Shown: in pieces, positions 3,094-6,618 of the stretch | How the letters are laid out: each line of letters opens with the position of its first letter | Position numbering within the stretch: position 1 is the stretch's first letter | Virus record (IMG/VR): IMGVR_UViG_3300045588_000033 | Span: 1-64,000 of that record | DNA: 64,000 nucleotides | Source of the DNA: a virus | Reading direction: 5' to 3' (one strand) | The notes under the pieces: model-generated | What the model saw: only the letters and a program-made list of their open reading frames with translations | Told to the model about the DNA's origin: nothing | Databases searched by the model: none | Position numbers and translations under genes: made by a program

Positions 3094-3119
3094 AATTTAG
3101 ATTTTAGATTGTTAATAAT

Positions 3120-3262
3120 TGGTGGCTCTAGTGGGAATCGAACCCACCTTGTATACTGTAATATGTAATATGAATATGAAGGAGAGCTACTCACCCATAC
3201 TTCTCTATTTATTACCTCTACCCACTCACAGTTCAGGAGCTACCTTTACCTGTTATAGAGCC
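3120..3262 (-). tRNA. tRNA-like element with encoded CCA and an insertion in the anticodon arm
   Basis: The minus-strand 3' half is textbook: T stem GTGGG/CCCAC around loop TTCGATT, acceptor strand TAGAGCC, discriminator A, then an encoded CCA ending at 3120. The matching 5' acceptor strand GGCTCTA lies at 3262-3256, followed by a D-arm-like CAGG/CCTG hairpin whose loop contains GG. A possible anticodon stem ACTGT/ACAGT is separated by about 65 bases instead of 7, and the variable loop is 7 to 8 bases. So this is either a tRNA with an intron or insertion, or a tRNA-like domain of a larger RNA. The anticodon cannot be read safely. Confidence 0.5.
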
Positions 3263-3386
3263 ATGTACGGGTCTTTCCCCGATTGTCACCATTGCCAATT
3301 TTGCGCATCAACTTGGACTTGCTTCCTAAAAGCTTTTTCTCCTATCTATTTAGAGCTGACCATTGGTTTTCACTCTCACTTCTTAA

Positions 3387-3452
3387 TCAGTGATTTACTT
3401 CACTTAAAATAAATGCTGCAAATACTACAATTGCAATTATAAGATATTCCAT
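3387..3452 (-). CDS. Candidate 21-aa membrane peptide
   Basis: Minus-strand ATG at 3452 reads MEYLIIAIVVFAAFILSEVNH, then TGA at 3389-3387. Almost the whole peptide is one hydrophobic helix, and it is preceded by an A/T-rich leader like those of other genes here. It sits between the large structured RNA and the tRNA-like element. At this length an open frame can occur by chance, so the hydrophobic pattern and leader are the only support. Confidence 0.4.
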   Translation of the reverse strand: MEYLIIAIVVFAAFILSEVNH

Positions 3453-3464
3453 TGTTATTTAATT

Positions 3465-4130
3465 TAATTAGTAGTCAGGACAGGAGCTGCCCCTGCACGT
3501 AACTTAGGTTTTCCGCTTTCACTTTTTTAGACCCTCCGTGAAATTGTTAGATGTGTCCTCACCAGTTATCCCTGTTACAGACCAAACTCTACCTCTTGCG
3601 TCTCTCATATTTCCGCCACCTGACTATATTACTATTAGCTCTTTAGCATTCTACTCCCAGCTCCGAGGAATTGTATCTTACTTAGCCCATCTCACCGCTG
3701 TACGGGTACTAAAGTTTACTAATAGTTGAGGTTGAGAATTCCTCTGTGTTATAGAGAACTTATACTCTAATTTTTAGTACTCCTCATCTCATAACGGTTT
3801 GCTTACCGTATCGGGAATAACACATTTAATAAAACTAAGGCGTATTACACTATACTACTTTCTCTTACGAGCCTGTGACAGTTCTAGCTGCCCATTTCCT
3901 TAGTTTTAACAACATACCCTGTCAGCCCAAGTTGCTGAATATATTATATAAGGCTTAAATCCTATACACGACTTTCACCCATGAGCCTAGTCTAATATCC
4001 TTCCACAAACAACTCCACCTTGGTATGGATTCTAACCTTCTTTAGACTCTTGCTTACGTAGGGCCCTATAGTTTTCTTTTAATATTGGTTATTCATTTGC
4101 TTCCAGCAGGGTAATTTTATACTGTGCCAA
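3465..4130 (-). ncRNA. Candidate large structured non-coding RNA
   Basis: About 650 bases without a credible gene on either strand, but dense in complementary segments. These include an exact 11-bp pair at 3830-3840 with 3898-3908, an 8-bp pair at 3706-3713 with 3773-3780, the hairpin 3794-3809 (ACGGT/ACCGT), and a CAGG/CCTG hairpin at 3481-3495. The minus strand is assigned because the neighbouring genes and tRNA-like element are on it and its loops are purine-rich. Known giant phage RNAs of this size that sit beside tRNAs are the GOLLD and ROOL classes. Membership is an inference that I could not test. Ends are approximate. Confidence 0.5.
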
Positions 4131-4169
4131 AATTGTAAAATAATTATGCGTTTGGCGGATTATAAATTT

Positions 4170-4224
4170 TCATAACAAGGTATAAGCGCAATTGAAAAAA
4201 ACTGCGCCTATACGGATGTTAGGT
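4170..4224 (-). other. attC-like site 1, after the winged-helix cassette gene
   Basis: On the minus strand the element starts ACCTAAC (fits RYYYAAC), ends GTTATGA, and between them has arms GTATAGGCGCA and TGCGCTTATAC that pair with a single mismatch (plus-strand 4180-4190 with 4203-4213). It begins one base after the stop of the gene at 4226-4537. Size (55 bases), terminal AAC/GTT and imperfect palindrome are the diagnostic layout of integron attC recombination sites. Confidence 0.5.
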
Positions 4225-4225
4225 G

Positions 4226-4537
4226 CTATTGTAAAGACAACCACTCCTCACCTTTAGCAGTTATTTCAAAATCTCCCCTACAACCACAGCTACAACCATC
4301 AACTAAACCACGTTTCATTAATTGCCTCATTTTTGCTAAAATCAATTTTTCAGAAGCAATATTTTTAGGCATTACATTTCTGACATCTCTATCATTTTCA
4401 AAATACCAGTTACACCAATGCCCTTTGTGTTTTAGCAAAAATTCCATAATAGGTTTGTCTGGTATCTCTTTACATTGAGAAACAACAGCACCTAACACGG
4501 GTTTGGCAAAAAAGCCGTTTTGTTCTTCGTTTGACAT
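4226..4537 (-). CDS. Winged-helix-like protein with a Cys cluster (103 aa), cassette gene
   Basis: Residues 28-100 read like a winged helix: helix PIMEFLLKHKG, a recognition-type helix SEKLILAKMRQLMKRGLVD, then a wing with CSCGCRGDFEITAKGEEWL. Cys82, Cys84 and Cys86 could bind metal. Proteins of this look occur in Bacteroidota, but no exact function is known to me. The gene fills one unit of the cassette array, ending one base before an attC-like site. Confidence 0.7.
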   Translation of the reverse strand: MSNEEQNGFFAKPVLGAVVSQCKEIPDKPIMEFLLKHKGHWCNWYFENDRDVRNVMPKNIASEKLILAKMRQLMKRGLVDGCSCGCRGDFEITAKGEEWLSLQ

Positions 4538-4574
4538 ATTGTTCTAATTTTTAAGTTTTGTGCTTCGATTTAGC

Positions 4575-4617
4575 TTTTCGTTTCGGCTTCTTCGCCAAGC
4601 CCGAACCCGTTAGCGGT
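4575..4617 (-). other. Weak attC-like site 2
   Basis: Between two small minus-strand genes lies a hairpin with TTCGGCTT (4582-4589) pairing with AAGCCCGAA (4597-4605) apart from one bulge. On the minus strand it is preceded by CCGCTAACGG, which supplies an AAC end. No clear GTT partner is visible, so this is the least convincing of the six sites. It could simply be a terminator hairpin. Confidence 0.3.
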
Positions 4618-4621
4618 CAGT

Positions 4622-4918
4622 TTAGTGAGAAGCATTGTAATAACCACTCCAAATTTTCTCTTTGCACTCAAATAAATTTGATAATTGTTTACCTAAATTA
4701 TATTCACGCATTGGGTTTCTGCAACTATCTATTTCTTTTTCTAAGTCTTTAATTCTTTGCTCGACCATTTGCTCAAACATTTCAGGAATATTATCTTGAA
4801 TTTCTTTTACTATTTCATTTTGAAATTTTGCCAAATCTTCTAATTCTTTACGTTTTGGAATACCTAACATAAATTTAGTAGTTAGCTTTAATAATTTATT
4901 TGTTACTTTTTTTGACAT
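4622..4918 (-). CDS. Hypothetical helical protein (98 aa), cassette gene
   Basis: Start set at 4918 (MSKKVTNKLLKLTTKFML). An ATG 36 bases upstream lies inside the attC-like element, and the inner start has the usual A-rich leader AAATAAATATT. The protein is almost all helix and highly charged (IVKEIQDNIPEMFEQMVEQRIKDL region), probably a coiled coil. Not recognised. It is bounded by attC-like sites on both sides. Confidence 0.65.
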   Translation of the reverse strand: MSKKVTNKLLKLTTKFMLGIPKRKELEDLAKFQNEIVKEIQDNIPEMFEQMVEQRIKDLEKEIDSCRNPMREYNLGKQLSNLFECKEKIWSGYYNASH

Positions 4919-4945
4919 AATATTTATTTGTTTAGAAAACCGAAC

Positions 4946-5080
4946 CGCTAACACTCGTTTTGTGCTATTACGGCAATTTCAGTTAATATTAAATTTTGTT
5001 GTTACGTTCACGTTTTTCGGTAGCCGAAAAACCTCTTTTCGCTTAGTGCCGTAACATCACAAAGCGAGATAACGTTATCA
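4946..5080 (-). other. attC-like site 3 (long form, about 135 bases)
   Basis: Arms at 4954-4975 and 5047-5068 are imperfect inverted repeats of 22 bases (CTCGTTTTGTGC... against ...GTGATGTTACGGCA on the opposite strand, three mismatches). Outside them lie CGCTAAC (4946-4952) and GTTATCA (5074-5080). The loop carries a perfect 8-bp hairpin (TTTTTCGG/CCGAAAAA, 5013-5031). Length and layout recall the long attC sites of superintegrons. The last three bases are the stop codon of the gene at 5078-5362. Confidence 0.55.
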
Positions 5081-5362
5081 AACATTGATACGTTTTCTGT
5101 AACCGTTGCAAATATCAAGAATGAAATCTATTCTGTTTTCTTCTGTATCAAAACCAGTCATCATTTCTTCAAGAGTATCTTTCAGTATTCCCACTTGCTC
5201 ATCAATAAGTTTGTGCTTTTGTTTTTGCAGATATTCTTCAGCGTATTGACTACACATCAATTGTATTTTATACCTTCCCATTTCAGAGTTCCCAAACTTA
5301 TCAATAATCTCGTAAGCCATTTCTTGAATGGTTTTCTCTCTATCTATTTTTACTCTTTCCAT
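5078..5362 (-). CDS. Hypothetical acidic helical protein (94 aa), cassette gene
   Basis: Begins MERVKIDREKTIQEMAYEIIDKFGNSEMG; predicted all-helical, with an acidic C-terminal half (LEEMMTGFDTEENRIDFILDI). Not recognised. Its stop codon overlaps attC-like site 3 and its start lies about 40 bases from site 4, the spacing expected of a one-gene cassette. Confidence 0.68.
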   Translation of the reverse strand: MERVKIDREKTIQEMAYEIIDKFGNSEMGRYKIQLMCSQYAEEYLQKQKHKLIDEQVGILKDTLEEMMTGFDTEENRIDFILDICNGYRKRINV

Positions 5363-5404
5363 AATTCGAATTTTAGTTCATTTATAATCTTTTCCGCAAC
5401 GCTT

Positions 5405-5458
5405 TGCTAACAATAGATAAGCGCAACTTTGCAGTCGCTTATCTATATCACGTTATAA
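5405..5458 (-). other. attC-like site 4
   Basis: A perfect 11-bp inverted repeat, ATAGATAAGCG (5413-5423) with CGCTTATCTAT (5436-5446). It is flanked on the minus strand by TTATAAC at one end and GTTAGCA at the other (plus-strand GCTAAC at 5406-5411 and GTTATAA at 5452-5458). It overlaps the stop codon of the gene at 5453-5695. This is the cleanest site of the set. Confidence 0.55.
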
Positions 5459-5695
5459 ATCAGTTTGCTTTTTACCAGTTCCTTTACACCAATCACAATC
5501 ACTTATCAATAGTTTGCCTGAACCTGAACAAGCAATGCAAACCGAACTTATAACAGTAGGTTGGTGCAATTTACTTAGTATCGCATCCGAAACAATATCG
5601 AAGTTATCTTCGTGTATCGCTTTTTCAGTTCTGCTACGGTCAATATATCCGCCATATTCTTTTAATAATTCAATAATTTCGTGCTTCGTTATCAT
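5453..5695 (-). CDS. DnaJ-type zinc-ribbon protein (80 aa), cassette gene
   Basis: Residues 1-45 are helical (MITKHEIIELLKEYGGYI). The C-terminal third has CIACSGSGK (Cys53, Cys56) and CDWCKGTGK (Cys67, Cys70), two CxxCxGxG repeats as in the DnaJ zinc-binding region, enough for one zinc site. Such mini-ribbons occur in many small phage and bacterial proteins; partner and role are unknown. It lies between attC-like sites 4 and 5. Confidence 0.72.
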   Translation of the reverse strand: MITKHEIIELLKEYGGYIDRSRTEKAIHEDNFDIVSDAILSKLHQPTVISSVCIACSGSGKLLISDCDWCKGTGKKQTDL

Positions 5696-5712
5696 AATAT
5701 TTTATTTTTAAT

Positions 5713-5746
5713 TCGTAAACTCCACCAACCTACATTACGTTATAAG
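5713..5746 (-). other. Weak attC-like site 5
   Basis: The minus strand shows CTTATAACGTAA, about 15 bases, then TTTACG, so short outer arms CGTAA/TTACG bracket the loop between two cassette genes. The AAC end matches the other sites, but the inner palindrome is missing and the GTT end reads GTTTACG. Support is mainly from position. Confidence 0.3.
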
Positions 5747-5749
5747 CAA

Positions 5750-6133
5750 TTATGCTTCTTTTAGTGGTAGCCAAATTTCGGTATCTACAAAGCATTTTTC
5801 TTTACCTGATAAAGCATTGTACTTTTTAACATAGTCTTCTGCTACTTCTTTTGTGGTACAAACAACGTCTTCATTATTATTATCGTACCATCTTACAATT
5901 GCATAACTTCCAATAACAGCATCTTGGCTCAATGCGAGTTTCTTTTCCATCCAATCAGAATATGCAGGTATGTTGTCGCTAAATACCAAATCTGTTTCAC
6001 GAGAATATTCAATCCTCAATTTCATTCTTTGTTCACTTACTTTATTCATTCTATTATATTTTTCGTTAATAATTCGCACTAAGCCAAGTTGCATTCCGTT
6101 ATATGCAACGCTACTTGACTGCTTCCAATTCAT
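5750..6133 (-). CDS. Hypothetical protein (127 aa), cassette gene
   Basis: Start at ATG 6133 (MNWKQSSSVAYNGMQ); an in-frame TTG one codon earlier is less likely. The N-terminal half is helical and basic (RIINEKYNRMNKVSEQRMK). The C-terminal half is mixed, with VIGSYAIVRWYDNNNEDVVC and a final beta-like segment WLPLKEA. No family recognised. It is flanked by attC-like sites 5 and 6. Confidence 0.66.
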   Translation of the reverse strand: MNWKQSSSVAYNGMQLGLVRIINEKYNRMNKVSEQRMKLRIEYSRETDLVFSDNIPAYSDWMEKKLALSQDAVIGSYAIVRWYDNNNEDVVCTTKEVAEDYVKKYNALSGKEKCFVDTEIWLPLKEA

Positions 6134-6144
6134 CAATTCGTTTT

Positions 6145-6200
6145 ATTTAACTGGACAAAAATACAGCCACAAATCAATGCAGCCGTATATTTTGTTTACA
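6145..6200 (-). other. attC-like site 6
   Basis: The minus strand reads TGTAAAC at one end and GTTAAAT (an exact GTTRRRY match) at the other. Inner arms ATACGGC and GGCTGTAT pair with G-T wobbles, and outer AACAAAA pairs with the TTTTTG-to-GTT stretch. It follows the stop of the 41-aa gene (6210) by 10 bases, so that gene and this site could together form one more cassette. Confidence 0.42.
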
Positions 6201-6209
6201 GTAACCTAT

Positions 6210-6335
6210 CTAAATAGTAAGTAATATATATACTGCATAACCTACAGCAAATAATCCTACTAATAATTGCAATAAAGGTAAACAACCTGCTGCTGCACTT
6301 TTGTTGTCTTCTTTGTTTTCTTCACTATTTTTCAT
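6210..6335 (-). CDS. Small membrane protein (41 aa)
   Basis: Minus-strand ATG at 6335 reads MKNSEENKEDNKSAAAGC, then a hydrophobic helix (LLQLLVGLFAVGYAVYILL, residues 21-39), and ends with TAG. A charged N-terminus followed by a single membrane span suggests an inner-membrane peptide with its tail outside the bilayer. It sits immediately before attC-like site 6. Function unknown. Confidence 0.6.
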   Translation of the reverse strand: MKNSEENKEDNKSAAAGCLPLLQLLVGLFAVGYAVYILLTI

Positions 6336-6354: not shown

Positions 6355-6618
6355 TTAATAAAAAGGATTTGATATTCCTAATTGTCTACAATAATTGTCT
6401 CTTTTACCTATTAAATCGTAGTCTTGGCTCTCTGCTAAGCTACTATAATAGCACATTTCCTCGTATTCTTCAATGTCTTCTTCAAGACATAGCACAGGAA
6501 AGTTATCAGTTATTAATTGAGCTCTATGCTCATTATCTTTGGGCTTATACTCAAGCTCTATTGCTCGTAAGTATACTCCCAATTCAGTAATAATTACTCT
6601 TGGTTTTGTTTCTTGCAT
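6355..6618 (-). CDS. Hypothetical acidic protein (87 aa)
   Basis: Begins MQETKPRVIITELGVYLRAIEL; two beta strands, then an acidic helical part (LEEDIEEYEEMCYYSSLAESQDYDLIGK) rich in Glu and Tyr. Not recognised. It is followed by the 41-aa membrane peptide gene, and upstream lies the terminator of the strongly isolated 171-aa gene, so it must have its own promoter or rely on read-through. Confidence 0.68.
   Translation of the reverse strand: MQETKPRVIITELGVYLRAIELEYKPKDNEHRAQLITDNFPVLCLEEDIEEYEEMCYYSSLAESQDYDLIGKRDNYCRQLGISNPFY

Follow-up and report, generated by a model that had tools for sequence, protein, structure and literature searches.

A crAss-like phage carries a gene cassette array that is very probably part of an integron-like system in Bacteroidota and their phages

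The virus record IMGVR_UViG_3300045588_000033 comprises 91.5 kb, of which positions 1-64,000 were analysed as one stretch of 64 kb (hereafter the window). On its minus strand, which is the gene strand, six hairpin elements and five small genes occupy positions 6101-4173. We propose that they very probably represent five mobile gene cassettes and one terminal site at a variable spot of a crAss-like phage, and that they are part of an integron-like system which Bacteroidota have in common with their phages. The working principle of this system is that of an integron, but it is not a member of the classical integrons, from which it departs in its recombinase, in its site geometry and, in phages, in its gene polarity. 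A reading made earlier from the letters of the window (hereafter the sequence-only reading) had proposed that the phage is crAss-like and holds an integron-like cassette array on which an integrase would act in trans. That proposal is supported by covariance matches, exact single-cassette breakpoints, an empty site in a closely related phage and the absence of a PF00589 protein. Other parts of it, above all the order of gene and site, had to be revised.

Anatomy and detection of the hairpin elements

On the gene strand the elements follow the design TAAC-N5-stem, a loop of widely differing length and stem-N1-GTTA, and the outer bounds of each are formed by YYYTAAC...GTTARRR boxes. The pairing is asymmetric, with 5 nucleotides (nt) beside one box versus 1 nt beside the other; the right spacer of the last element is about 3 nt long. 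E1 occupies positions 6101-5914 (188 nt; covariance model E-value 7e-7) and E2 positions 5742-5551 (192 nt; 1.8e-6), followed by E3 at 5455-5408, which belongs to a short class (48 nt; 7.5e-5), E4 at 5077-4949 (129 nt; 9.1e-14) and E5 at 4612-4493, which has the commonest length found in phages (120 nt; 3.8e-17). The terminal element E6 at 4221-4173 bears no open reading frame (ORF) and directly meets the phage backbone.

A strict scan of the whole 64 kb on both strands for TAAC, 5 nt, stem, a loop, stem, 1 nt and GTTA recovered E1 to E5, missed E6 and gave no match elsewhere on either strand, and dinucleotide shuffles of the array region yielded a mean of 0.024 matches. A covariance model trained on 58 elements, all from other contigs, recovered all six elements at their exact coordinates, five of them with E-values of 3.8e-17 to 7.5e-5 and E6, sixth of seven matches, with an E-value of 1.1. 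The sole further match in the window had an E-value of 8.9. Thus, the six hairpin elements of the sequence-only reading are present, and a covariance check of the kind that it had suggested for the region turned out positive.

Folded as single-stranded DNA, E3 (z = -4.25), E4 (z = -3.67) and the stretch 4224-4173 containing E6 (z = -4.5) are clearly better than shuffled sequences, and E5 is weakly better (z = -1.9). The arms of E1, E2 and E5 are widely separated and the next ORF begins between them. In these points, and in the asymmetry of the pairing, the earlier description of the elements as imperfect palindromes is to be corrected. The boxes are of the attC type (RYYYAAC and GTTRRRY with the core TAAC/GTTA) and are combined with a hairpin fold, as in classical integrons. 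E5 is 76% alike to an element of Flavobacterium phage filifjonk9-1 that separates two DNA methylase genes. An interpretation of the hairpins as tRNA was rejected, as ARAGORN called none.

Distribution and conservation of the element family

A 23-base pattern derived from a single arm matched at least 119 stretches in viruses and no fewer than 116 in bacterial genomes; among the genomes listed, the titles are nearly all of Bacteroidota. Scanning the listed stretches revealed hundreds of elements with 5:1 spacers. They often form arrays with two to nine members, and lengths of 49, 73, 78, 87-88, 120 and 126-128 nt are preferred. The spacing is specific: in the listed genome loci the 5:1 combination was counted at 177 sites and other combinations at 4 to 17, apart from the 1:5 combination with 172 sites, which are the same sites on the opposite strand.

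Across 58 diverse elements the stem is conserved as a structure. Paired bases were found in 95.7% of the cells, a count that is partly circular since these elements had been preselected for pairing at 11 stem positions, the last two pairs being least affected, and both sides had changed in all 12 inner-stem pairs. The covariation score was 0.697, whereas shuffled alignments gave 0.164 and slid versions no more than 0.135. That the covariance model recovers the window elements is free of such circularity. The TAAC/GTTA boxes are invariant while the letters of the stem vary freely. In 274 of 471 elements we observed a conserved C-A mismatch at stem position 5 amid an otherwise paired stem, which perhaps stands in for the extrahelical bases of attC.

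Movement of cassettes between genomes

Comparison of genomes shows the movement of single cassettes with breakpoints in the core box, as known from integrons. In all six informative pairs of loci that hold the same gene, the upstream element is retained and the downstream one differs. Contigs L037 and L146 have in common a block of 820 bp with 100% identity that extends from TAACG to the TAACG of the next element and has unrelated flanks, and the same holds for a block of 997 bp in L094 and L122, again with 100% identity. In two Flavobacterium phages available as isolates, filifjonk9-1 and mumin6-1, a multi-gene difference of approximately 1.6 kb starts and ends at TAACGTT; its flanks show 99.9% identity on one side and 99.6% on the other. 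Material of the window itself was found elsewhere too, as the sequence-only reading had proposed to look for: positions 4953-4608 with the gene of the fourth cassette recur with 94.5% DNA identity in L360, bounded by TGTTAGCGG and CCGCTAACG and located behind a different element. L360 is a viral contig of 30 kb without a crAss capsid gene and may be a fragment. As this case shows, a gene without its element, cut at both boxes, can serve as the unit too.

Ordinary homologous recombination between similar hairpins could likewise reshuffle small phage genes, in which case the hairpins would not be dedicated sites of a recombinase. Phages recombine promiscuously, many elements are alike over up to 120 bases, and the difference between filifjonk9-1 and mumin6-1 lies between two related elements. 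However, the breakpoints fall within a box of 5 bases, too short for homology, and the sequences to either side of it are unrelated; the elements of the window are strongly unlike one another, and the arrays are accompanied by a recombinase and an attI-like site. We regard homologous recombination as a quite improbable explanation and favor mobile cassettes with dedicated sites.

Cassettes and the genes they carry

Counted from one TAAC to the next, the units of the array are 6101-5743, 5742-5456, 5455-5078, 5077-4613 and 4612-4222, followed by the bare element 4221-4173. Small genes thus alternate with elements as proposed by the sequence-only reading, but there are five of them, and the last element stands without one. 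Cassette 1 consists of E1 and a gene at 6049-5750 for a protein of 99 amino acids, the first approximately 48 of which are encoded within E1. The gene had been recognized before, albeit as one of 127 amino acids; the start at 6049 inside its element is more likely. Cassette 2 combines E2 with a gene at 5695-5453 (80 amino acids) that starts inside E2 and encodes a DnaJ-type CxxCxGxG ribbon. E3 with the gene 5362-5078 (94 amino acids) forms cassette 3 and E4 with the gene 4918-4622 (98 amino acids) forms cassette 4; both proteins are without assigned function. In cassette 5, E5 encodes the first approximately 18 residues of a protein of 103 amino acids (4537-4226). An ORF of 41 amino acids at 6210-6335, considered earlier as a possible member, lies outside the array. 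Cassettes 2, 4 and 5 begin and end with complementary sequences (e.g. GTTAGGTGCTGTTGT and ACAATAGCACCTAAC), as integron cassettes do.

In cassettes 1, 2 and 5 the ORF begins in the hairpin and reads through the right arm and the right box into the gene; a predicted N-terminus encoded in this way is MSNEEQNGFFAKPVLGAV. For the 103-amino-acid protein, 31 of 33 matching viral loci align only to the first 13 to 49 residues, and most of these 31 match only the 13 to 18 residues encoded by the element. The remainder of the protein occurs in L274 and L275 as free phage genes without an element. Similarly, L307 has in common with cassette 1 only the element and the start of 48 residues, after which a different gene follows, and L362 has in common with cassette 2 the element (85%) and its coded start, diverging directly behind it into another downstream gene. 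In view of these partial matches, ORF starts inside hairpins are not an accident of annotation. An ATG that is open through the right end of the element was found in 54% of phage elements and 31% of chromosomal elements, in comparison to 21% of shuffled ones. The 98-amino-acid gene of cassette 4 is present in L361 as a plain phage gene outside any element.

With regard to the cargo, the ribbon of the 80-amino-acid protein is present, though as a weak Pfam match (E-value 4e-4), and the winged helix of the earlier reading is weakly suggested by a match to a phrog of transcription regulators (E-value 0.011). The most frequent large genes near phage elements are DNA methylases, which suggests counter-defence. 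Such a role is likely for cassette cargo; it is put forward from the cargo elsewhere and not from the five genes of the window.

Gene polarity in phage and chromosomal arrays

In both phages and chromosomes, the genes of an array are all transcribed in one direction. In phage arrays, including that of the window, the element precedes its gene (147 of 158 genes), and the genes read toward the attI-like site, with the recombinase following. The sequence-only reading, in which an attC follows each gene, is the reverse of the order in phages, as the six pairs of loci that all keep the upstream element also show. Chromosomal arrays show the classical order of gene and then element in 81 of 86 cases. 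Accordingly, the classical arrangement, with the gene followed by its attC and reading away from attI, is present in chromosomal arrays and reversed in phage arrays. That the element might precede the gene in chromosomal arrays too was considered and rejected once ORF directions had been counted.

These counts also bear on the idea that the hairpins are signals at the RNA level, i.e. terminators, attenuators or leaders for translation control, and have spread only as useful regulatory parts. Phage elements often hold the start codon of the next gene and could control its translation. For a cis-regulatory role it would be unexpected, though, that in chromosomal arrays such elements follow the gene instead of preceding it, and a search of Rfam at the gathering threshold and at E-values up to 1 gave nothing relevant for the hairpins. 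Invariant boxes combined with freely varying stem letters fit a DNA site bound by a protein. A purely regulatory origin therefore appears very improbable; as recombination sites, the hairpins may still have a side role in expression.

Recombinases and attI-like sites

A tyrosine recombinase recurs next to chromosomal arrays. Elements were found 3' of the recombinase in one fixed orientation at 16 of 17 loci, although ten of these platform loci had been picked because the recombinase was already seen near elements. For the other seven, the presence of an element in the genome was the sole criterion of choice. Six of them agree, while the seventh lacks an array and has a recombinase of another type. 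As a comparison, 18 further recombinases of these genomes had no more than stray matches in their surroundings, and the covariance model gave one match in 340 kb in comparison to 23 in six candidate platform loci. Between array and chromosomal recombinase, 76-127 nt from the stop codon, a conserved TAACTnnnTTATA-like motif is present in 14 of 16 cases and is a natural candidate for attI.

A relative of this recombinase with approximately 275 residues is encoded in environmental phages. At all 13 loci of such phage enzymes, YTAAC with a TATATGTA-like motif behind it was found 53-56 nt before the start codon, and in most loci that are long enough to tell, elements lie upstream on the same strand. 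Examples of array recombinases are those of Pelobium manganitolerans (L208/L313) and of the phage contig L348, with TAACTnnnTTATA or TAACTATTATATGTA as putative attI-like sites. Among isolated phages none has a close relative of the phage recombinase, the best one showing 36% identity.

In a phylogenetic tree, 15 chromosomal and 10 phage recombinases form two well-supported groups apart from XerC/D and IntI1, the placement of IntI1 itself being unsure due to its long branch. The best family match of the array recombinase is NCBIfam NF040815, a family of simple XerA-like tyrosine recombinases described as "site-specific tyrosine recombinase/integron integrase", with 218.7 bits at a cut-off of 220. 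Unlike this family, the chromosomal forms carry an extra N-terminal part of approximately 70 residues and the array recombinase is linked with arrays and an attI-like site. The nearest solved structures by sequence are those of XerC/XerA-like proteins and of IntI4. Against TIGR02249 the array recombinase reached 207 bits (cut-off 265), in comparison to 507 bits for IntI1 as positive control. With these scores and those of PRK15417, its assignment as IntI was rejected. To the IntI-specific region (about model positions 180-238) neither the chromosomal nor the phage array recombinases gave a match.

Three further observations concern recombinases. In Flavobacterium silvisoli (L199/L312) about a dozen elements lie beside an unusually long recombinase of 580 amino acids with a repeated N-terminal part; the tree places this enzyme apart from the main chromosomal group. 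One complete genome, that of Bacteroidetes bacterium UKL13-3 (L321-L323), encodes three near-identical recombinases, each with its own element or elements and an attI-like site. Plasmids of Klebsiella, Aeromonas and Acinetobacter (many plasmids of Proteobacteria) encode recombinases of approximately 245 amino acids that are 50-53% identical to the catalytic part of the array recombinase.

The phage and the variable site

The phage encodes a Crassvirus major capsid protein (PF23898, E-value 2e-83) and a matching large terminase (phrog_6681, E-value 3e-85), and the label crAss-like given to it earlier therefore holds. The array is flanked upstream by a conserved backbone gene for 87 amino acids (6355-6618, minus strand) and downstream by a non-coding backbone (3119-4167) that is conserved in the related contigs L003 and L006. 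In L006 the site is empty and both flanks of the array are nearly adjacent, with less than 100 nt between the 87-amino-acid gene and the other flank. In place of the array, L003 has a single small gene and L005 a radical-SAM-like gene (4548-5405). In L016, a crAss-like phage of more distant kinship, the corresponding region contains two other elements. The crAss capsid protein was present in L003, L006 and L016 when checked. As related phages are empty or have other genes at this position, the array has been added at a position used by this lineage for the exchange of small genes, and the comparison of related phages for cassette content, suggested by the sequence-only reading, indeed revealed variation. 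The radical-SAM-like protein, which has a CxxxCxYC-type motif, fills the array spot in L004 as well as in L005. On the minus strand, the part 3119-4163 of this non-coding backbone, conserved in L003 and L006, opens with a tRNA-like T-arm and acceptor end (GGTTCGATTCCCACTAGAGCCACCA); ARAGORN finds no tRNA there.

Proposed mechanism of cassette exchange

We hypothesize that the element folds as a single strand and is cut by the recombinase in the TAAC/GTTA box, in the way in which IntI acts on attC. A unit would leave one array and enter another array or an attI-like site. Since the record of the crAss-like phage contains no PF00589 protein, its array would depend on a recombinase in trans, provided by a chromosomal platform of the host or by a co-infecting phage. 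In about half of the cases the phage element carries a start codon and first residues, which would give a captured gene a ready-made start of translation; with it, the gene could be translated anywhere without a platform promoter. We further consider it fairly probable that Bacteroidota phages have an integron lineage of their own, with a dedicated recombinase that lacks the IntI-specific domain, an own attI-like site and a hairpin before the gene that supplies start codon and first residues, by which recombination would also fuse N-terminal segments to new genes. CrAss-like phages would draw on this pool without having the recombinase.

Several points weigh against the interpretation as mobile cassettes of an integron-like system. 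No recombination was observed. A PF00589 protein is absent from the 91.5-kb record, which bears out the earlier statement that the window contains no integrase, although the record may be incomplete. No promoter was identified. The selection of ten of the 17 platform loci by their recombinase reduces the weight of that comparison. The box in which the cut occurs is ambiguous, since most exact cases break at the left TAAC and L360 at both boxes with the element left behind. Finally, the exact DNA pattern was found in three of 296 sampled Bacteroidota genomes, the centre genome included (two of about 295 others). In species-level samples the variant with the exact pattern is rare; as this pattern represents one sub-variant, its prevalence says little about the whole family.

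Relation to known integrons

Class 1 and chromosomal integrons resemble the system described here in several ways: small genes stand in tandem, a single folded site with RYYYAAC/GTTRRRY-type boxes at its bounds goes with each gene, single cassettes move with a breakpoint in the box, and a tyrosine recombinase lies beside an attI-like site. The classical definition of an integron, however, includes the tyrosine recombinase IntI with its IntI-specific additional domain (PMC9668308), which the array recombinase lacks. The site family has 5:1 spacers, whereas for the class 1 aadA1 site a spacing of about 7:7 gives the best fit; in phages, moreover, the gene order is reversed and the gene often begins within the site. 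The classical attC-type membership assumed by the sequence-only reading was thus not borne out. In Treponema, reversed chromosomal integrons are described as intI-type (PMC3607928), which the array recombinase is not.

The array could nevertheless be a cluster of classical cassettes that strayed from an IntI-type integron, as in other phages. Qi et al. 2023 (PMC9892861) describe integrase-less attC clusters (CALINs) in phages with DNA methylases among the cargo, like the phage cassettes here, and report for a Polaribacter phage that IntI1 used one of the two sites put to the test. By the definition of IntegronFinder, a CALIN has at least two attC sites called by its own model and no intI; in the array, our covariance model gives six sites, and the phage record has no recombinase. 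The boxes of our elements are GTTRRRY/RYYYAAC-like, cassette ends are complementary, and the chromosomal arrays have the classical gene order. Spacers of 5:1 do not form a near-symmetric pair, though, the genes in phages are reversed, the recombinase is without the IntI-specific domain, and a class 1 integron array gave no match to the covariance model. Altogether, classical cassettes appear unlikely, and an integron-like system with its own sites and recombinase is preferred.

Polaribacter phage P12002L, which has a Bacteroidota host and is treated in the same study, has TAACG...TGTTA hairpins between methylase genes that resemble the class of 49 nt. Because the covariance model did not match P12002L, it was left uncounted as a member and kinship is only suggested. 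As far as read here, Qi et al. 2023 (PMC9892861) do not describe a separate Bacteroidota-specific site family, N-termini encoded by elements or a dedicated phage recombinase. In the openly licensed literature we found no published account of sites with 5:1 spacers, of the recombinase that goes with them, of phage cassettes in reversed order or of N-termini encoded by elements; as this literature alone was searched, such absence is weak evidence.

Conclusions

Searches for integrons rely on IntI and on the classical attC model. A system whose recombinase lacks the IntI-specific domain and whose sites have another geometry would therefore be missed or mislabelled by them. The array raises the question of what a phage gains from a recombination site that lies at the 5' end of a gene and encodes part of the protein. 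If our interpretation is true, phages would capture genes as cassettes far more often than the handful of published cases suggests, and crAss-like phages would be linked with unrelated phages and with the chromosomes of Bacteroidota. Phages would thereby obtain a fast means of swapping methylases and other small accessory genes.

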